Shown: positions 5,599 to 42,405 of the stretch, one piece after another | Numbering within the stretch: position 1 is the stretch's first letter | How the letters are laid out: the number at the start of each line of letters is the position of its first letter | Assembly: GCA_018263435.1 (NCBI GenBank) | Contig: JAANXD010000044.1 | Span: 1-42,682 of the forward strand | DNA length: 42,682 nucleotides | Direction: 5' to 3' | From: Candidatus Scalindua arabica | Lineage (GTDB): Bacteria; Planctomycetota; Brocadiia; Brocadiales; Scalinduaceae | Translations under genes and position numbers: made by a program | Notes under the pieces: model-generated | What the model was told of the DNA's origin: nothing | Seen by the model: the letters and a program-made list of their open reading frames with translations, nothing else | The model's database searches: none

Positions 5599-6513
5599 TC
5601 AAATCGTAAATCCTAAATCCATTAACACCCCATACCTCAAACCCCTTGAGCTTATACTGCAGATTGGAAATCTCAATTTCTCCATTGTTCTCCACATAAT
5701 CATTGCCCCTGCCAGTAAGACGTCTGCACGTTTTGGTTCGATGCCTACCTGCTCGCGCCTTTCAGCAACCGTCATGGACTTCAGGTCTTCAACCATTTGT
5801 TGCAAATTTCCCTTAGACAAATGAACTCTTTCTACTTCAGCAGCATTAAACGTCTCTTGCTCCAGATGCCAGGTAGCAAGCGTAGTCGCTGTGCCGGCTA
5901 CAGCAAGCATTTGCATATCTGCCGGAATAGAACTACGCCAGCCCGCAAGTTCTTCCAGCTTATTATCTATTTTATCAAGACATTCTACAAATTCTTCATC
6001 AGTTACAGGATCTGACTTAAGATATCTCTCCGTAAAACGCACAGACCCTAAATCCACACTTCTATCCGCTTCTGCCGTCACAAATTCGGTACTTCCACCC
6101 CCTACATCCAACACAGCATAGTGAGATGGGTCCATACCGGGTAGCAGAGAACCTATAAAGCTCAGGCGAGCTTCATCTTTCCCTGAAAGAACTCTGAACC
6201 TTAAGCCAAACTTTTCCTCAACCTTATCAAAAAAAGCCTCCCCGTTCGAAGCATCCCTTGCATGACTGGTAGCCACGCACACCACATCACCAGATAATAT
6301 GCCCGCTTCAGAGATTATTTTATAATATTCTGACAGACACTCAAAAGTCCGCTCTATTGCCTCAGGCTGAAGGCTTCCTGTCTTATCCACCCCTTCTCCC
6401 AGACGAATGATTCTGGCATAATCACCTGACACCTTTTTAATCTGTCCCGACTCAACCTCCGCCAGAAGCATAAGACAGGTATTCGTCCCTAAGTCAATTG
6501 ATGCTCTCAGCAT
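5599..6513 (-). CDS. Ppx/GppA family phosphatase (short form)
   Basis: 304 aa, the length of the single-module Ppx/GppA proteins that lack the C-terminal HD domain. Two ASKHA phosphate-binding motifs are clear: SIDLGTNTCLMLLAEV at the N-terminus and AVLDVGGGSTEFV in the middle. GTATTLA provides the adenosine-side loop. By family it removes phosphate from polyphosphate or from pppGpp; sequence alone does not say which. Start ATG with AAGGGAG four bases upstream. It stands alone on the minus strand, followed by a 600-bp non-coding region on its upstream side. Confidence 0.9.
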   Translation of the reverse strand: MLRASIDLGTNTCLMLLAEVESGQIKKVSGDYARIIRLGEGVDKTGSLQPEAIERTFECLSEYYKIISEAGILSGDVVCVATSHARDASNGEAFFDKVEEKFGLRFRVLSGKDEARLSFIGSLLPGMDPSHYAVLDVGGGSTEFVTAEADRSVDLGSVRFTERYLKSDPVTDEEFVECLDKIDNKLEELAGWRSSIPADMQMLAVAGTATTLATWHLEQETFNAAEVERVHLSKGNLQQMVEDLKSMTVAERREQVGIEPKRADVLLAGAMIMWRTMEKLRFPICSISSRGLRYGVLMDLGFTI

Positions 6514-6757
6514 TTAACTCCCTTCTACTTCCTATATTAACCCAAGCCCAACCAGAGGTATAATATTTATAAGAAACCGGCTTCATTTTATCTCCTAATA
6601 GAATTTGTCATGCATAATAATAAGAGACTATGAATATATTATATATTCAAAGAGCCTTTTCCAAGATTTTTTATGTAAAAACTTTTGATCCTATCTTTGA
6701 AGTACTTTATTTTATTATGCAAGCAATAAACGCTGTTCAATGGCAAACTATGCCTTT

Positions 6758-6856
6758 GGCATTGTGTCTTCAATAATTTTGAGTGGCATTATTACATTTG
6801 ACATTGTGTCTTCAATAATTTTGAGTGGCATTATTACATTTGACATTCTGTCAAAC
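6758..6856. repeat. 42-bp tandem repeat, about 2.3 copies
   Basis: The unit begins ATTGTGTCTTCAATAATTTT and continues through GAGTGGCATTATTACATTTG. It starts at 6761 and 6803, and a partial third copy begins at 6845 (ATTCTGTC). The first two copies are almost identical. The block ends about 115 bases upstream of the sigma-54 promoter at 6973, the distance usually seen for activator (enhancer) sites of sigma-54 promoters. Confidence 0.85.
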
Positions 6857-6972
6857 GTGTGTCGAGTTAAACTTATATTACAAATAATCATATAATTAAT
6901 AACTTTTATATCTATCTGTATTTAACTGTACTTACAGAAAACAAGATGATGATTTTTGTACCTTTTTAATTT

Positions 6973-6987
6973 TGGCACTATAGTTGC
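6973..6987 (+). promoter_or_regulatory. Sigma-54 (RpoN) promoter
   Basis: TGGCAC, five bases, TTGC, with the invariant GG and GC separated by exactly ten bases: a full match to the -24/-12 consensus. Transcription would start near 6999, leaving a leader of about 150 bases before the YceI-like gene at 7152. Within the remaining non-coding stretch 6514-7151, the 42-bp repeats are the only other structure seen. Confidence 0.75.
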
Positions 6988-7151
6988 GCAGTTACGAGAT
7001 TCAGACTGTGCGATGATTTATTAAAGTGGGTTATTTTCCAAATAAGTAATTATTTACGTATAGACTCCAATCACGTATTCTTTTTATGTTTCAATTATTC
7101 CATCATAACGATGGCTTTTTATTTTAAAAAAATACCTGTGGAGGAAAAATC

Positions 7152-10460: not shown

Positions 10461-11261
10461 CTACCCTCCCTGGATAACCAGTTTTTTCTTGCCGGCGCCC
10501 CACATAAGACTACAAATAACACCCATTATCAGTATCCACATTAATTGTGAGATTATTATTGAATGAACTTCTGCCAACGGAACTCTTCCGGTCAGGATAA
10601 CAGTAGGAAAATAAAGCATATACTGAAACGGAAGAAAATTAACTACTGGTTTCAAAAATTCAGGGAAGAAGTCTATAGGCACTATCCCTCCGGAAAAAAA
10701 GGTAAACAATGCATATTTAAAGAGCATAAACGGGAAAATCTCTACAAACCAGAAAGCAAGCAATCCCGCAGCAAAGTTAAGCATAGAGATTAATATGTAT
10801 CCAGCAAAAAATGAGAAAAGAAATGCTAATAATCTCACAGGTTCAAACGGAATAGAGATATCAAAAAGAAAAAGGGATATTATGACAATAGGAAAGGTCC
10901 TGGCCATAGTGTGAAAGAGGGAATGGCCGACATTCTCTGCAAGGTTCATAAAGAAAAAGGATGTTGGCCTTACAAGCTCCATTGCAATAGAACCGTCCAT
11001 AACTTTCCTATAGATAATGGAATCATCCATCGTAAAGGATATCCTCACTGCCATCACCAGGACAGCATAAGTTACAATGGCAGTTAATGTAAAACCATTA
11101 TGCACTGTAGTATCGAACTGTGAATACAATGCTTTCCACAGAGAAGTAAAAATAAACACATATAAAAAGCCATTCACTATGCCAACGAAGCAGTCAAACC
11201 TATACGTAACCTGCTTCTGAAAAGATATAGATACGAATTTAAAGAAAAGTTCTGGTTTCAT
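10461..11261 (-). CDS. ABC-2 type exporter permease (COG4587-like)
   Basis: 266 aa with six predicted helices. The block SFTMDDSIIYRKVMDGSIA followed by MELVRPTSFF is characteristic of the COG4587 subunit, and GGIVPIDFFPEFLKPVVNFLPFQ is the conserved loop before the last helices. It starts one base after the ATPase gene stops and is followed without a gap by the second permease. Together the three genes form one exporter. Confidence 0.88.
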   Translation of the reverse strand: MKPELFFKFVSISFQKQVTYRFDCFVGIVNGFLYVFIFTSLWKALYSQFDTTVHNGFTLTAIVTYAVLVMAVRISFTMDDSIIYRKVMDGSIAMELVRPTSFFFMNLAENVGHSLFHTMARTFPIVIISLFLFDISIPFEPVRLLAFLFSFFAGYILISMLNFAAGLLAFWFVEIFPFMLFKYALFTFFSGGIVPIDFFPEFLKPVVNFLPFQYMLYFPTVILTGRVPLAEVHSIIISQLMWILIMGVICSLMWGAGKKKLVIQGG

Positions 11262-11262
11262 C

Positions 11263-12294
11263 TCATTTAGTAAATGACTTGTTCGAAGGCGTAGACAATT
11301 TTATACGATTGTCATAAATGTTTCTGATTATGCTTTCTACAGATGGTTCCTTTACTGAAATATCCTTTATCTTATATTGAGAGGCAATGGTGCCTATAAC
11401 ATCTCCTATACCAAAATTATCTTTGTCAAACGTCAGCCACTTCTTACACCCCTGCTCCCGCACAACAGTGACTCCGGAAATTTCCTGCATAACACAATCA
11501 TTTTCGTAAAATTCTACCTCAATTACTTTCTCATGGATAAATTTCTGCTTCAACAACTCGGTTTCACCGTCAAACATAATCTTTCCCTCTTCAAGTATGA
11601 TAAGGCGTTTGCAAAGTTGTTCGATGTCGTTCATATCATGAGTAGTAAGTATAATAGTAGTTCCCACTGTTCTGTTGATTTCCGAGAGGAAATTTCTTAC
11701 AGATTGCTTCGCCAGTACATCCAGTCCGATTGTAGGCTCATCGAGAAAGAGTACCGGAGGGTTGTGAATAAGAGCCGCTGCAATATCACACCTCATCCTC
11801 TGGCCTAAAGACAGCTTTCTTACCGGCATCTCCAGAAGAGGCCTGAGACCAAGTGCCTTTTCCAGCTTTTCCATTTGACGATCAAAGTCTGACCTGGACA
11901 CACGGAATATTACTCTCAGCAAATCGAATGACTCACGAACAGGAAGATCCCACCAAAGCTGTGTTCTCTGTCCAAATACCACACCAATCTTTGCTGCATT
12001 CTTTTTTCTGTCCTTATAAGGAACAATTCCATTTACCGCTGCAGTTCCGGAGGTCGGAACAAGTATCCCCGTCAACATCTTTATGGTGGTCGATTTGCCG
12101 GCACCATTCTCACCAACATATCCTACAAATTCTCCACGTCTTATCTTAAAGTCAATGTCATTCACAGCCGTAATAACCTTGTTGCTTCTATGAAAAAGCG
12201 CTTGAAGTTTACCTAAGAAGCCTTTACCGGATAAGCTTACTTTGAATTCTTTCCTTAGATCTGTAACTTCGATTGCAATATTATCATGCTGCAT
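11263..12294 (-). CDS. ABC exporter ATP-binding protein (COG4586-like)
   Basis: 343 aa. Walker A is GENGAGKST (61-69), the signature motif is LSLGQ followed by RMRCDIAAAL, Walker B is VLFLDEPTIGLD and the H-loop is LTTHD. An extra N-terminal stretch (SGKGFLGKLQALFHR) between the first strand and Walker A, and a C-terminal extension of about 90 residues, are typical of the COG4586 group. It drives the two ABC-2 permeases encoded directly downstream. Its start lies four bases after the end of the HyuA-like gene. Confidence 0.93.
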   Translation of the reverse strand: MQHDNIAIEVTDLRKEFKVSLSGKGFLGKLQALFHRSNKVITAVNDIDFKIRRGEFVGYVGENGAGKSTTIKMLTGILVPTSGTAAVNGIVPYKDRKKNAAKIGVVFGQRTQLWWDLPVRESFDLLRVIFRVSRSDFDRQMEKLEKALGLRPLLEMPVRKLSLGQRMRCDIAAALIHNPPVLFLDEPTIGLDVLAKQSVRNFLSEINRTVGTTIILTTHDMNDIEQLCKRLIILEEGKIMFDGETELLKQKFIHEKVIEVEFYENDCVMQEISGVTVVREQGCKKWLTFDKDNFGIGDVIGTIASQYKIKDISVKEPSVESIIRNIYDNRIKLSTPSNKSFTK

Positions 12295-12298
12295 GTTT

Positions 12299-14272
12299 TT
12301 ATATCCTTTTTCCTATAATCAGGTTATCATAATCGTCAATATTACAAATATACTCCGGTGCAAGAAAAGTTGTTGAAGTATCCTCAACTATCAGTGCAGG
12401 CCCATTAATCCTTGAATGTTTCTGCACTCTGTTACGATCAAGAACATCTGCCTTTAACCATTTTCCCCTGAAAAAGAACTTCGTCTTTTTGCCAATCGAC
12501 GGTCCCATCGACAAAGAACCTTTCGGCCTTTTTCCCATCACAGGTTTTCTCGTCTTCCCGGTTACCCTTACCCTGATATTTACTACCTCTATGGAATAAT
12601 CGCTCTTTGCATAACCATACGACCGTTTATGGAGTTTATGAAAATCATCGATAAAACTCTTTTTAAATGGCAGATTAAGCTCGTGAGCCTGCCCCATGTA
12701 TCTCATATCAACAGAATTTTCTATTTTAATCCTGTTATTACCCACGCCTTCTGAAAGGACATCTTTCATACCTTTTGATTCTAATGGTTTAAACAATTTC
12801 ACAAGTTCCCTGTACCCACTTTCTTCTACTTCTAACAGTACACTCCTTGAATAATCTTTAACAATGTCCGCAACCGTCATACCCAATGCAGACAGTACTC
12901 CTGCATTCTTAGGTACAAGAATCTTCTTCATTGAAAGACGACCTGCCAACTCACATGCATGAAGTCCTCCTGCACCACCAAAAGAGACCAGTGCATAATC
13001 TCTTACATCAAATCCTTTCTCAACAGAAATTACCTTTATGGCCCTTTCCATGTTCGCATTTGCAACATCTATAATCCCTTCCGCAGCCTTTATGGGAGTC
13101 ATACCCAGTTTCTCTGCTAGTACTTCCATATATTTGGACACCATGTCGGTTTCAAGCTTCATCCTTCCGCCAAGAAAGTGTTCAGGGCTGATTCTTCCCA
13201 GAAACAAATTAGCATCAGTAACTGTTATTTTCTTCCCCTTACCATAGCAGACAGGTCCCGGATCTGCACCTGCACTCTGCGGCCCTACCCTGAGAGCACC
13301 ACCGGGATCAACGTATGCGAGAGACCCGCCTCCTGCTCCTACCGTATTCAAGTCAATAACAGGTATCTTTATTGGCATACCGCTGACAACTGCCTGTGTA
13401 GTAAGACGAATATCACCATCACAGAGAGAAACATCTGTAGAAGTCCCGCCCATGTCAAATGATATAATCTTTTTTATGCCGGTAAGCCTTGCTACTCCTG
13501 ACGCCCCGATTACACCCCCTGCAGGGCCTGAGAGAATGCAGTTAACGGCCTTCCGCTTGGCAGTCCCGGTAGAAACACTACCACCATTAGATTGCATTAT
13601 GCTTATATTGCTTGTCTCCAGTCCGGCTTCCAATGAGGTTATATATCTTGACATAACGGGTGAAACGTATGCATTAACTACAGTAGTACTAAACCTCTCG
13701 TATTCACGATATTCTGGTAATATCCTGCAGGAAGCAGAAATATGTATCCCTGGATGCTGCAGCCCATTCATCACAGCCTCTTCGTTTGCAGGATTTTTGT
13801 AAGAAAAAAGAAAACAGACTGCAACAGACTCTATCCCCTGCCTTCTTAATTTAGTACTAATCTTCTTTAAATCACTCTTCTTTATTCCGGACACAACTTT
13901 ACCCGTTGCAGCAACCCTCTCCTTTACTCCCCATCTAAGGTCTTGCGATACCAGAGGTGACTCACGACAAATGAAAAGGTCGTAAAGCGAACTTCTTGCC
14001 TGTCGGCCAATTTCAATCACGTCCTCATATCCATTCGTGGTAATCAAGGCGACCTTTGCCCCTTTTCTCTCAAGCAGTGTATTTGTTGCAACGGTAGAAC
14101 CGTGTATTATACATGTTTGCTTCTTTGACACACCAAGGGACCTGATTCCACTGAAGACAGCCTCAGCAGGATTGTGAGGTGTAGATAAAACTTTATGTAC
14201 CTTTAATTCTTTTCCATCAAACAGCACAAAGTCTGTAAAAGTACCTCCAATATCAACCCCTAAAACTATCAA
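12299..14272 (-). CDS. Hydantoinase/oxoprolinase family protein, HyuA-like
   Basis: About 657 aa, the normal size for the HyuA (N-methylhydantoinase A) subunit. N-terminal ASKHA fold: VLGVDIGGTFTDFVLFDG; then IHGSTVATNTLLERKGAKVALITT, the SGPAGGV loop and IISFDMGGTSTDVSL, all conserved. The family uses ATP to open hydantoin, 5-oxoproline or acetone-type substrates, normally with a HyuB partner, but no HyuB gene is adjacent here. Start: a TTG at 14272 is preferred because GGAG lies eight bases upstream; another TTG at 14290 would add six residues. It is close to the ABC exporter genes and probably co-transcribed. Confidence 0.9.
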   Translation of the reverse strand: MIVLGVDIGGTFTDFVLFDGKELKVHKVLSTPHNPAEAVFSGIRSLGVSKKQTCIIHGSTVATNTLLERKGAKVALITTNGYEDVIEIGRQARSSLYDLFICRESPLVSQDLRWGVKERVAATGKVVSGIKKSDLKKISTKLRRQGIESVAVCFLFSYKNPANEEAVMNGLQHPGIHISASCRILPEYREYERFSTTVVNAYVSPVMSRYITSLEAGLETSNISIMQSNGGSVSTGTAKRKAVNCILSGPAGGVIGASGVARLTGIKKIISFDMGGTSTDVSLCDGDIRLTTQAVVSGMPIKIPVIDLNTVGAGGGSLAYVDPGGALRVGPQSAGADPGPVCYGKGKKITVTDANLFLGRISPEHFLGGRMKLETDMVSKYMEVLAEKLGMTPIKAAEGIIDVANANMERAIKVISVEKGFDVRDYALVSFGGAGGLHACELAGRLSMKKILVPKNAGVLSALGMTVADIVKDYSRSVLLEVEESGYRELVKLFKPLESKGMKDVLSEGVGNNRIKIENSVDMRYMGQAHELNLPFKKSFIDDFHKLHKRSYGYAKSDYSIEVVNIRVRVTGKTRKPVMGKRPKGSLSMGPSIGKKTKFFFRGKWLKADVLDRNRVQKHSRINGPALIVEDTSTTFLAPEYICNIDDYDNLIIGKRI

Positions 14273-14303
14273 TATTTCTTCTCCGTTCAATCTCTTAAAC
14301 AGG

Positions 14304-14331
14304 ACGCAGATCTTCGCGGATAAACGCTGAT
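14304..14331. repeat. Three 10-bp-phased ACGCNGAT motifs beside the GxxExxY gene
   Basis: ACGCAGAT (14304-14311), TCGCGGAT (14314-14321) and ACGCTGAT (14324-14331) follow one another with exact 10-bp spacing. The reverse complement ATCTGCGT occurs twice at the other end of the gene (14718-14725 and 14755-14762). The GxxExxY gene is therefore bracketed by inverted copies of one octamer. Confidence 0.7.
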
Positions 14332-14333
14332 AA

Positions 14334-14771
14334 CTACTTCCTTAAGTTATCAAAAGCCTTGCGCTTAAAATCTGGCTTTGGGCCATAATTAAACAAAAGA
14401 CCTACTTCTATATCGGTTGCTTTTAAATAATTTAATAATTGTGCTTCATGCTCTTCTGCTATGTTCTTAGCAGCTTTTAACTCCACAATAATTTTACCAA
14501 GAACCAAAATGTCAGCAAAGTATTCACCTACAATTTCACCCTCATACAACACTTTTATTGCAGATTGTGACACTGCTGAAATATTTTCTTTCTTAAATTC
14601 AATCATCATTGCATTCTCATACACTTTTTCAAGAAAATCATAACCAAGTTTATTATAAACTCTATAAAAGATTTCTATAATCTTTTCAGTTAGTTCTTTG
14701 TATTTGAAATCCTTATAATCTGCGTCTTGTCCTCGGCGCCTTTTGTCCGGGGACATCTGCGTCCCATCCAA
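14334..14771 (-). CDS. GxxExxY family protein
   Basis: Up to 145 aa. The domain runs from KELTEKIIEIFYRVYNKLGY through LEKVYENAM, VLYEGEIVGEYFADILV, IIVELKAAKNI and AQLLNYLKATDIEVGLLFNYG. These match the GxxExxY family, whose D...ELK pattern resembles PD-(D/E)xK nucleases; the role is unknown. The name-giving Gly is replaced: the motif reads DFLEKVY. The N-terminus is uncertain: the frame can start at a TTG (14771) or at an ATG at 14756, and the first 20 residues are encoded by repeat-like sequence, so part of it may not belong to the ancestral protein. Confidence 0.85.
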   Translation of the reverse strand: MDGTQMSPDKRRRGQDADYKDFKYKELTEKIIEIFYRVYNKLGYDFLEKVYENAMMIEFKKENISAVSQSAIKVLYEGEIVGEYFADILVLGKIIVELKAAKNIAEEHEAQLLNYLKATDIEVGLLFNYGPKPDFKRKAFDNLRK

Positions 14772-14776
14772 AAGAA

Positions 14777-15754
14777 TTATTTAAACATAGAAAAGATTTG
14801 CTTAAATGTACCGTTCTTAATGTTTGAAAGGAGTTTTTCAATACTGATCCTCAGCTTTTCTTCGTTATAGGCCTTTATTGTTATCCTGACCTCATCTCCT
14901 TCAAAATACCTGGAGTGGTTAACACGAACGTCATTATCCAGACCCAGTTCCCTGCAATAATTATCAAACTCATCCTCCTTCTTACTAATGACAGGATAAC
15001 GCATGGCCTTTATTAATCTATAGACACTCTCACCTCTTTGCCTCTGATTGGATTTATTGTCTGAGAGAATATGAGTGATTTCTTTTGAAGATAATAATTC
15101 AACCATTCCGGTTTGTTTTATCTGCTTAAGATCGAGCAGGCTTCTAATTGTTTCTTTCGCCTCATTAACGTTAGTACTTGCCTCTCTAAAGAGAACTCTC
15201 CACACAATATCCCTCTCAACACCATCAAGTGTAACAAGCAGAAAGGCTTTTTCCGGCTCCAGTTCATCATCGGTTATAGATTTCTTTATTTCAGTATCAA
15301 GGGTTAAAAGGTCAATATATTTGTCTATAATGCCCTTATTAGGCGGAACACCAAGAAGTGGAGCTATTTCAGACATCAATCTATCGTAAGAATAACCTGT
15401 CTCCAGAAACTTCTTTAAAACTATTGCCTTTTCAATTTCATTAAACCCTCTTGAAGATAAATTATCATGAAGAGCCAACAACATTATCTCTCCGTCATTT
15501 ATCCCCTCTACAACCTTTGCCTCAATACTCTCGTATCCTAATTTCTGACAGGCCTTGATACGTTGATATCCGCATACAATAGTATATACTCCACCGGTAT
15601 CCTGGTTCTTATTTAATATTACAGGATTAATCAATCCCACATCTTTTATCGAACTCATTAAGGCATTCGAATCTTGTCGATAATTAAACAGAAACCTGTC
15701 GTGATATTCTGAAGACAAGTCTATATTATTTAAAGAAACCTGGTTTATTTTCAT
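14777..15754 (-). CDS. ParB-like N-terminal domain protein
   Basis: About 325 aa. The N-terminal part shows the ParB/Srx fold: LNNIDLS, NALMSSIKDVGLINPVIL, YTIVCGYQRIKACQKLGY and LLALHDNLSSRGFNEIEKA. GYQR stands where ParB CTPases have GERR. A helix-turn-helix-like region (SYDRLMSEIAPLLGVPPNKGIIDKYI) follows. The C-terminal 150 residues are not recognised. There is no ParA gene or parS-like site nearby, so a chromosome-partition role is doubtful; a DNA-binding regulator is as likely. The ATG at 15754 is taken as start; an in-frame TTG at 15790 would add 12 residues. Confidence 0.8.
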   Translation of the reverse strand: MKINQVSLNNIDLSSEYHDRFLFNYRQDSNALMSSIKDVGLINPVILNKNQDTGGVYTIVCGYQRIKACQKLGYESIEAKVVEGINDGEIMLLALHDNLSSRGFNEIEKAIVLKKFLETGYSYDRLMSEIAPLLGVPPNKGIIDKYIDLLTLDTEIKKSITDDELEPEKAFLLVTLDGVERDIVWRVLFREASTNVNEAKETIRSLLDLKQIKQTGMVELLSSKEITHILSDNKSNQRQRGESVYRLIKAMRYPVISKKEDEFDNYCRELGLDNDVRVNHSRYFEGDEVRITIKAYNEEKLRISIEKLLSNIKNGTFKQIFSMFK

Positions 15755-39839: not shown

Positions 39840-40142
39840 TTATGTATACTGAAACTCCTCTACAGCTAACTTCAATTCAACTCCCGGACATATCCTACAA
39901 TACTTTGGATTATAACCACTCTCTGGAATGCCGTAGTATTTTTCGCATTCAGGACAAATCAAATACTTTACTGTCCCTTTGTTTTTCCTTTTGTATTTCC
40001 CATTGCCGTTATGAGTGTGATTGTCAAATTCTTTTGTAATTCCTAAAATCATCTCACCACAATGTTCACAACAAGGATTAATCTTATCAGGCATGTAAGA
40101 TAGTTTTTCCTTACATTTAGGACATGTAAAATTCTTCTCCAT
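39840..40142 (-). CDS. Zinc-ribbon hypothetical protein
   Basis: 100 aa. Four pairs of metal-binding cysteines: CPKC and CEHC form a first ribbon, CPEC and CRIC a second, separated by a basic linker (NGKYKRKNKGT). It probably binds two zinc ions. Function unknown; no close operon partner. Confidence 0.75.
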   Translation of the reverse strand: MEKNFTCPKCKEKLSYMPDKINPCCEHCGEMILGITKEFDNHTHNGNGKYKRKNKGTVKYLICPECEKYYGIPESGYNPKYCRICPGVELKLAVEEFQYT

Positions 40143-40659
40143 TTAATTCACCTACTTTCATAAAAAATTAAAATGATAACTGTCAGCTCTCAATCTGACC
40201 ATACTTTGAAATATTTATATTCCTGATGTTGTTGGATAACCTTTATGGCAAAATACGTACCATTATAAATTTATCTATGAATTTTCAGTGCCTGTTGAAA
40301 ACTAAACAATTTTATAATTATGGTAAAATATGATTGAAGTTAAGGGAGGTTTCTTTATAACTCAGAAAAGGATTACCAATAAATCACTAAGGCACAAAGC
40401 ATATGGTGAGTGCTTGAAAGTCTTTTGTTTCAATAGGTTGTGAGTTTTAAAAATTCTTAAGAATAATACTGGGTGAGACAGGGATAGAATCTGATGATGT
40501 TTTATTTAAAATCGGAATCAGATTTTATAAAACTGTCAATCTGGTGTGATAATAATTTTATTAACACCTCTTTTCCGGTACAATTCATAGTCTATTTGAT
40601 AATAAAAAGTGTTCAATTATAGAAAGTGTAAAGTTCTGACTTCTGTAAAATTTTACACT
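40143..40659. other. Intergenic region with two hairpins
   Basis: 517 AT-rich bases without a gene. AATCTGAT ... ATCAGATT (about 40488-40526) can pair. AAGTGTAAA ... TTTACACTT (about 40624-40659) lies directly after the regulator gene and is its likely terminator. Confidence 0.5.
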
Positions 40660-42405
40660 TTATTCAGGTTTGCGATCCTTTACTATATTATATTCTTCCA
40701 TCTTCAAATAGATATTTGTACGGCTCATGCCAAGTTTGCGTGCCGCCTTGGCCTTGTTCCAATTGCTTTCTTCTAATGCCTGTAAGATTGATTGCCGATC
40801 AAAGTGCTCTCTCCTTTTTAACGATTGTATGTTAGCAACATTAAGATTTTGGAATTCCTGTGGTAAATTATCTATAGTAATTATGTTCTTTTTGCACATG
40901 ACTATGGCGGATTCTAAGGTGTGCTGAAGTTCCCTAACATTACCAGGCCATTTGTAATACATAAATACCTTTAAAACTTCTGTAGATATACATTTAATAC
41001 TTTTATTTAATTTCTTATTGAACTTTTTTATAAAATAGTCTACCAGAAGGGGAATGTCCTCACGTCTTTTCCTGAGCGGTGGCATAGTCAATTCTACAAC
41101 TTTTAGTCTGTGAAATAAGTCTTCACGGAATTTCCCCTGCTTTACTTTTTTGCGAAGATCCTGATTTGTGGCTGCTATAATCCGAATATCTACTTTAACA
41201 GGAGTTGATTCACCTAAACGTTCAAATTCCTGTTCCTGTAGCACTCTTAATAGCCGTAGTTGCATTGTATTCGATATATCTCCTATTTCGTCTAAAAAGA
41301 TAGTACCTCCATCAGCCTTTTGGAATCTACCGATTCTATCACTGACAGCTCCAGTAAATGCACCCTTAACGTGTCCAAATAGTTCACTTTCAAGCACGTT
41401 ATCAGACAATGCGGCGCAATTTACCATAACAAAGGGGATTTTAATGCTTTTCTGGTGATAATGCAGCGCCTCTGCCACCAGTTCCTTTCCTGTACCATTT
41501 TCACCTGTAATCAAGACTGTTGTTTTAACGTCAGCCAGGGCATCAATAAAATCATAAACCCTTTGCATTTCCTTACTTTTACCTATTAAATTTTGTAGTT
41601 GCCGGCGTTCATGCAGATCAGTTTCCAGATTAACAAGTTTTGTTTCGTCTCTAATAACCATGACGCAACCACAAAATTTCTCCTGATAGCCAAAGAGTGG
41701 GTATGTGATAACACTAATAACACGTTTTGGCTGTCCTTGCTTATTACATTCAAAACGGCTTGTTTCAACGGGAAGTTTTGTATTGATTGTCTCGTTAAGT
41801 GATTCTATACATTTTCCACTGCAACCATCCACAAAAGATTCATATCTCTTTCCTCTCGCCTCAACTGGAAAGCCACATATTTCTTTTGCAGCCTCATTGA
41901 ATTCAAGAATCACTAAATCCTTATCCACTGCAATAATTGCGTCTTTAATGCTCTTGAAGATTGCCTCAAGGTTAGATCTGTAATGAATTAGTTTCCGTTC
42001 ATTAGTAATCGTTTTAGTTATTTGTATCAGATGACTTAACAGTTTCTGATCGTCTAATGGTTTTAAAATGAACTTGTCAGCACCCATATTAATAAATGTC
42101 ATAAGATAATCCGAGTCATCATGTGCAGAAATGACAATAATTATCTGTTCCCTATTGATTTCTTTGATCTTATTAACCATCTCGATACCATTCATAACTG
42201 GCATCTTGATATCACTAAACACAATGTCATAGTTACCGTGTTTGTATTTATCCAATCCGTCCTGGCCATTAATGGCGGTATCAACTGTCTTAAAAAACTC
42301 AGATAATAAATCTGTTATTTCGAGCCTGACGTCATTATCATCTTCGACAAGCAGCACATGGATATCTTTAGCGTATTTTGCAAGATCTTTTATTATTGTG
42401 TCCAT
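40660..42405 (-). CDS. Sigma-54-dependent response regulator (REC-PAS-AAA+-Fis HTH)
   Basis: 581 aa. Receiver domain 1-130 with acidic pair E21/D22-D23, phospho-acceptor Asp65 (FSDIKMP) and Lys115. PAS domain about 145-260 (AIIAVDKDLVILEFNEAAKEICG, with a CSGKC pair). AAA+ domain from about 283: Walker A GENGTGKE (301-308), GAFTGA (348-353, contacts sigma-54) and Walker B FLDEIGD. The C-terminal Fis-type helix-turn-helix (KAARKLGMSRTNIYLKMEEY) binds DNA. Its kinase is encoded just upstream and is broken by an IS. A possible target is the sigma-54 promoter at 6973. Confidence 0.95.
   Translation of the reverse strand: MDTIIKDLAKYAKDIHVLLVEDDNDVRLEITDLLSEFFKTVDTAINGQDGLDKYKHGNYDIVFSDIKMPVMNGIEMVNKIKEINREQIIIVISAHDDSDYLMTFINMGADKFILKPLDDQKLLSHLIQITKTITNERKLIHYRSNLEAIFKSIKDAIIAVDKDLVILEFNEAAKEICGFPVEARGKRYESFVDGCSGKCIESLNETINTKLPVETSRFECNKQGQPKRVISVITYPLFGYQEKFCGCVMVIRDETKLVNLETDLHERRQLQNLIGKSKEMQRVYDFIDALADVKTTVLITGENGTGKELVAEALHYHQKSIKIPFVMVNCAALSDNVLESELFGHVKGAFTGAVSDRIGRFQKADGGTIFLDEIGDISNTMQLRLLRVLQEQEFERLGESTPVKVDIRIIAATNQDLRKKVKQGKFREDLFHRLKVVELTMPPLRKRREDIPLLVDYFIKKFNKKLNKSIKCISTEVLKVFMYYKWPGNVRELQHTLESAIVMCKKNIITIDNLPQEFQNLNVANIQSLKRREHFDRQSILQALEESNWNKAKAARKLGMSRTNIYLKMEEYNIVKDRKPE

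Follow-up and report, generated by a model that had tools for sequence, protein, structure and literature searches.

Sigma-54-dependent regulons of the NtrC/AtoC type, such as those predicted in Desulfovibrio vulgaris (PMC4641369), have -24/-12 promoters with palindromic activator sites located 100-200 bp ahead of them, and a regulator that combines a receiver domain, an AAA+ domain with a GAFTGA motif and a Fis-type helix-turn-helix (HTH). In Nitrospira, genes for sigma-54-dependent regulators lie next to nxrAB, and these regulators are suspected of controlling it (PMC6606698). In Kuenenia, a sigma-54 regulator lies within the hydrazine-synthase electron-transfer cluster (PMC12053348), and in Scalindua the cytochrome c oxidase genes are induced by nitrite, by a mechanism called unresolved (PMC13253579). 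A further point of comparison is the RegB/RegA system, in which GGxxNPF is the quinone motif of RegB (PMC8191878). In the searchable literature we found no published binding site or regulon for anammox catabolic genes, and nothing relevant that joins anammox either to enhancer-binding proteins or to YceI.

The locus described here belongs to a MAG of the marine anammox bacterium Candidatus Scalindua (G000; 2.69 Mb in 102 contigs). The window, i.e. the whole stretch of 42,682 nucleotides that was analysed, is contig 42 of this genome. A preliminary description of it had pointed to a perfect -24/-12 element and upstream 42-bp repeats ahead of a gene for a cytosolic YceI protein, and all of these features were found again (Table 1). 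The repeat has a period of 42 with 96% matches, and the -24 TGG lies 121-218 bp downstream of its units; TGGCAC-N5-TTGC has no other perfect copy within the window; and the protein, besides its Pfam match, begins with MSLKAGAYSLNGNSG... and by inspection has no signal peptide. The element shows GG and GC at -24/-12, the 10-bp spacing and the flanking consensus of a sigma-54 promoter, from which transcription of yceI would be expected to start about 12 bp downstream, near position 6998. An Rfam search around the promoter gave no credible match.

The perfect palindrome that ends the incomplete third repeat unit (box 1) had been overlooked, and the predicted functional element within the 42-bp repeat is this palindrome, TTTGACA-N3-TGTCAAA. 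The 42-bp unit was ruled out as a conserved element, since conservation is limited to the boxes and their 40-42-bp phase. Other aligned yceI promoters of the same type (G009, G002, G004 and G001) hold a single unit each; by this comparison the repeat of the window is a box-plus-spacer unit copied once more, specific to G000. The sigma-54 element, in turn, is kept at the orthologous yceI of G000, G009, G002, G004 and G001, and at the yceI-nxr loci of G013 and G014.

Table 1. Features of the window that are discussed in the text
Feature	Position	Strand	Remarks
Ppx/GppA phosphatase gene	5599..6513	-	divergent, upstream neighbour of the yceI promoter
42-bp tandem repeat, 2.3 copies	6755..6852	+	one predicted enhancer unit (box + spacer) duplicated
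Box 3, distal, degenerate, TTTGGCATTGTGTCTTC	6755..6771		apparent product of the duplication
Box 2, TTTGACATTGTGTCTTC	6797..6813		42 bp upstream of box 1
Box 1, perfect palindrome TTTGACATTCTGTCAAA	6839..6855		predicted primary activator site
Conserved block GTACTTACAGAAAACA	6928..6943	+	contains the ACTTA-type block between enhancer and promoter
Sigma-54 element TGGCACTATAGTTGC (-24/-12)	6973..6987	+	assigned by consensus match and conservation
Terminator-like hairpin CCATCATAACGATGG with T-rich tail	7100..7124	+	within the yceI leader
yceI, 185 aa	7152..7709	+	Pfam YceI, E=1.3e-18, 68.3 > 23.7 bits; lipocalin-like fold
Gene for 100-aa protein	39840..40142	-	several Cys pairs, zinc-ribbon-like
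Sigma-54-like site TGGTACGTATTTTGC	40248..40262	-	between the genes for the 581-aa regulator and the 100-aa protein
Gene for 581-aa receiver-PAS-AAA+-HTH regulator	40660..42405	-	candidate of the preliminary description, rejected for the yceI promoter

Two further features of this region deserve a remark. ACTTA occurs in 25 of 44 promoters at -62 to -25 from the -24 TGG, in 24 of those at -45 to -40, and the ACTTAC block (around -43) is accounted for neither by sigma-54 nor by the boxes. The hairpin that precedes the yceI start codon by about 40 nt is a possible attenuator; G009 (CCGTCATAGTGACGG) and G002 (CCGTCATAATGATGG) retain its stem, with changes that are paired, and G001 and G004 lack it.

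The combination of boxes and promoter recurs elsewhere in G000: a 205-bp stretch of contig 12 matches the region of the yceI promoter at 77% identity, and on contigs 32 and 66 box-like palindromes are clustered near sigma-54 sites. Genome-wide, the perfect TGGCAC-N5-TTGC has four matches against five for the reversed pattern, so that the lone element is at background frequency, while its combination with the boxes far exceeds chance. A one-box pattern (TGACA-N3-TGTCA, 98-128 bp, TGGYAY-N5-TTGC) found six sites in G000 and matches in 16 of the 17 Scalinduaceae genomes; it matched nowhere in 22 other Brocadiales, and the reversed pattern, used as control, gave no match at all. In a sample of the phylum (392 genomes), 25 matches fell in seven Scalinduaceae, against three single matches in the other ~384.

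All 44 one-box promoters possess a second box, at a distance of 40 bp (n=20), 41 bp (n=10) or 42 bp (n=14), where 0.018 would be expected per offset. Because 40-42 bp amount to four helical turns, both boxes would lie on the same face of the DNA, which fits NtrC-type dimers that oligomerize. A scan for two boxes with cores 39-43 bp apart, in which the sigma-54 element was not required, again gave matches confined to 16 Scalinduaceae genomes and none in the controls. A sigma-54 element accompanies each of the 59 distinct two-box sites examined, 100-134 bp away from the nearer box (at least 8 of 10 positions matching, with GG and GC intact; chance 0.8% per scan window per strand); repeats away from sigma-54 promoters, which would have spoken against the earlier reading, were not among them. 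Comparative genomics therefore strongly supports the proposed sigma-54 promoter with an NtrC-type enhancer layout, and judging from these patterns the yceI element is almost certainly a real promoter of a sigma-54 regulon.

The pattern searches also provide the list of targets. Two-box promoters precede the NXR operon (nxrC, nxrB, chaperones and nxrA); a transporter operon with a formate/nitrite-family (FNT) protein, an HPP membrane protein, a dCache/PAS sensor, cytochromes and an HAO-like multihaem protein; an operon for a multihaem 950-aa cytochrome, cupredoxin-like and bd-like proteins, an EB_dh-cytochrome and a universal stress protein; several Rieske/cytochrome b operons with HAO-like proteins or FAD-FeS oxidoreductases; the gene of a TDT-family transporter; and, in part of the Scalinduaceae, yceI. 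The cytochrome cd1 nitrite reductase gene nirS, with three radical-SAM proteins, has such a promoter in G003, G005, G007, G008 and G012 (cytochrome d1 domain PF02239, 3.5e-133), and no box was found within 900 bp of nirS in G000 (C85). Sites on C66 and C80 of G000 reach the contig ends, and their targets were taken from relatives. By predicted function the target set is a nitrite/respiration regulon. An unexpected member is an RND-family efflux pump gene, which carries a two-box promoter in G005, G006, G007, G010 and G012. Compared with the known NtrC/AtoC-type regulons, the Scalinduaceae differ in the box (GACA-N3-TGTC), in its strict 40-42-bp pairing and in these nitrite and respiratory targets.

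Two Brocadiaceae genomes have the NXR subunits and the bd-like/cytochrome genes in an uninterrupted cluster, with a PAS protein and NtrC-type regulators on its flanks, none of these regulators being a close orthologue. In Scalindua the cluster is split into two operons, both with the same two-box promoter, so that co-regulation appears retained. The operon on C12 was also considered as the source of the nitrite-induced oxidase, and this was rejected: no canonical ccoN was seen in it, only a subunit of the bd-like kind and a multihaem protein resembling FixO, and the link to the reported induction (PMC13253579) is therefore suggestive only.

Directly upstream of the NXR promoter a 472-aa NtrC-type response regulator, which we name NxrR, is encoded together with a histidine kinase. 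NxrR has the receiver, the sigma-54 AAA+ domain with GAFTGA and the Fis-type HTH of the NtrC type, and it scores below the NCBIfam cut-offs for NtrC (NR(I); 421.8 < 558.6 bits), AtoC (487.9 < 714) and ZraR (403.5 < 760). Its orthologues (77-93% identity) occur in Scalinduaceae only, with a relative of 63% in G018 and paralogues of ~46% elsewhere, and its recognition helix GITPRTIYRKM is near-invariant across the family. The position of the gene resembles that of the Nitrospira regulators beside nitrite oxidoreductase genes; that genus belongs to another phylum, the likeness is one of gene position, and the accessible part of the Nitrospira paper reports neither a binding site nor a wider regulon. 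The partner kinase combines a PilS-like six-helix (6TM) domain with a PAS domain, and GGxxNPF is present in the kinase of all orthologues inspected (GGIENPF in the one paired with NxrR). It thus resembles RegB, likewise a six-helix membrane sensor with GGxxNPF and a respiratory-gene regulon; unlike RegB it is PilS/AtoS-like with a PAS domain, it has an NtrC-type activator as its partner, and over the whole protein it misses the RegB family cut-off (89.7 < 350 bits).

These observations suggest the following mechanism. The enhancer would consist of two boxes (three in the window), TTTGACA-N3-TGTCAAA, four helical turns apart on the same DNA face. The histidine kinase would phosphorylate the NtrC-type activator, whose dimers would bind the boxes and join into an oligomer; by looping out the intervening ~120 bp the latter would reach the promoter and, hydrolysing ATP, open it, so that yceI would be expressed within a nitrite- and quinone-linked respiratory regulon. 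The presence of rpoN is implied by the 13 full-length sigma-54 activator domains in G000. The genomes show directly the promoter layout, its conservation, the genes that follow it and its confinement to the Scalinduaceae; that a protein binds the boxes, which activator this is, that quinones give the signal and in which direction the genes are regulated we infer from these patterns. We regard this explanation as a whole, a two-box sigma-54 promoter of a respiratory regulon with NxrR as its most likely activator, as well supported; that NxrR activates the two-box promoters is, taken by itself, likely, and quinone redox as the signal is a tentative reading of the motif in the kinase.

The identity of the activator leaves room for the most serious alternative, namely that the regulon is the same and is served by another of the ~13 NtrC-type proteins, the location of NxrR beside NXR being incidental. 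The number of full-length sigma-54 activators in G000 speaks for it, as do some irregularities in the distribution: G015 and G018 possess NxrR orthologues (63% identity in the latter, which also has NXR) and no boxes, and in G016 the regulator/kinase pair is unlinked from NXR. In G015, NXR is likewise undetected, and NxrR is missing from G002, an 82%-complete assembly. On the other hand, NxrR is the sole activator gene seen beside a box, in most genomes inspected, and its high-identity distribution tracks the boxes, whereas other activators, matched at ~46% identity, are present in families that have no boxes. We therefore consider a different activator unlikely.

A role of the boxes as sites for a repressor or a nucleoid-type protein, instead of a sigma-54 activator, is much less probable. 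Many dimeric regulators could use a palindrome of such a length, yet a repressor site would be expected to overlap the promoter, and the location 100-134 bp upstream, the strict 40-42-bp phase and the obligatory sigma-54 partner are activator-like.

Hardly more than a slight chance can be given to the 581-aa regulator encoded in the window itself, which the preliminary description had named as a suitable activator; its domains are the appropriate ones, and it lies on the same contig, ~33 kb from yceI. Among 38 relatives it has a close homologue only in G014 (88%), the others reaching at most 61%; G011 and G012 carry the promoters and have no homologue at E<=1e-130, and on this distribution the regulator was rejected for yceI. 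Moreover, its recognition helix AARKLGMSRTNIYLKM differs from that of NxrR, and a sigma-54-like site lies nearer to it, ahead of the gene for the small zinc-ribbon-like protein; this site is more likely its target than the yceI promoter. Equally improbable is that the 42-bp repeat is a neutral duplication, the sigma-54 match a chance one and yceI read from a sigma-70 promoter: the perfect element at background, the duplication unique to G000 and sigma-70-like matches, at background level only, agree with this, but box, phase and sigma-54 element are conserved ahead of the yceI orthologues of several MAGs, and ahead of unlinked operons as well.

The preferred reading, a two-box sigma-54 promoter most likely served by NxrR, has YceI among its targets. 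That YceI genes are not usual sigma-54 targets, as stated in the preliminary description, holds in general, but in the Scalinduaceae YceI sits among co-regulated respiratory genes. Its closest relatives are from Candidatus Scalindua MAGs (90% and 88% identity). With known members of the family, E. coli YceI (1y0g) and the polyisoprenoid-binding Thermus TT1927b (1wub), it shares the Pfam domain and a predicted barrel that matches solved structures: the AlphaFold model (pLDDT 83) finds 7bwl, 1y0g, 5ixh and 1wub in Foldseek with E<=6e-10 and a query TM of 0.65-0.68. The protein may have a quinone or isoprenoid role. The anammox protein differs by its absent signal peptide and by its conservation across anammox families in respiratory neighbourhoods. 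It is present in 13 of 17 Scalinduaceae (clear cases) and in all ten sampled Brocadiaceae, where at the loci inspected it usually lies immediately before a Rieske/cytochrome b pair, and it was not found in families f2-f4 of the Brocadiales.

In two genera the NXR-operon promoter stands directly ahead of YceI. The gene order in G013 is regulator - boxes - sigma-54 - yceI - nxrC - nxrB, and in G014 yceI likewise follows this regulator and this promoter. The yceI copies of G003, G007, G008, G010, G011 and G012 have no two-box sigma-54 promoter; on this pattern, it is in only part of the Scalinduaceae that yceI joined, or stayed in, the predicted regulon. In G011 a promoter of the yceI type beside gppA (C41) drives not yceI but the operon of the 950-aa cytochrome. 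The yceI gene of G011 is located behind an HAO-like gene, within an operon for electron transfer (C10), as if recombination had taken place between similar promoter copies. A second yceI of G013 (C24) is decayed, with several stop codons, and stands behind a duplicate of the NXR regulator gene. In the same genome (C3, ~11200-15700) the translations repeat a peptide, QSTLPYGER / SLPIRGRGLK, as is typical when a CRISPR array is translated, and Cas1/Cas4-like genes adjoin it.

The type of mechanism is known, and what appear to be new are the regulon, its box and the regulator pair proposed here. They yield a defined DNA site, a list of targets and a named candidate sensor/regulator pair for the control of anammox catabolism, and they place the poorly understood YceI, found in nearly all sampled anammox genomes, within respiratory gene contexts. 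It is conceivable, although we put it forward with reserve, that nitrite catabolism in marine anammox bacteria has a single master switch, formed by a quinone-sensing kinase and its NtrC-type partner. Through the two-box sigma-54 enhancer this pair would coordinate the genes for the uptake, reduction and oxidation of nitrite with those for the quinol-oxidising complexes and for a cytosolic YceI acting on quinones or quinone precursors. If true, this switch could underlie the nitrite-dependent gene induction reported for Scalindua.
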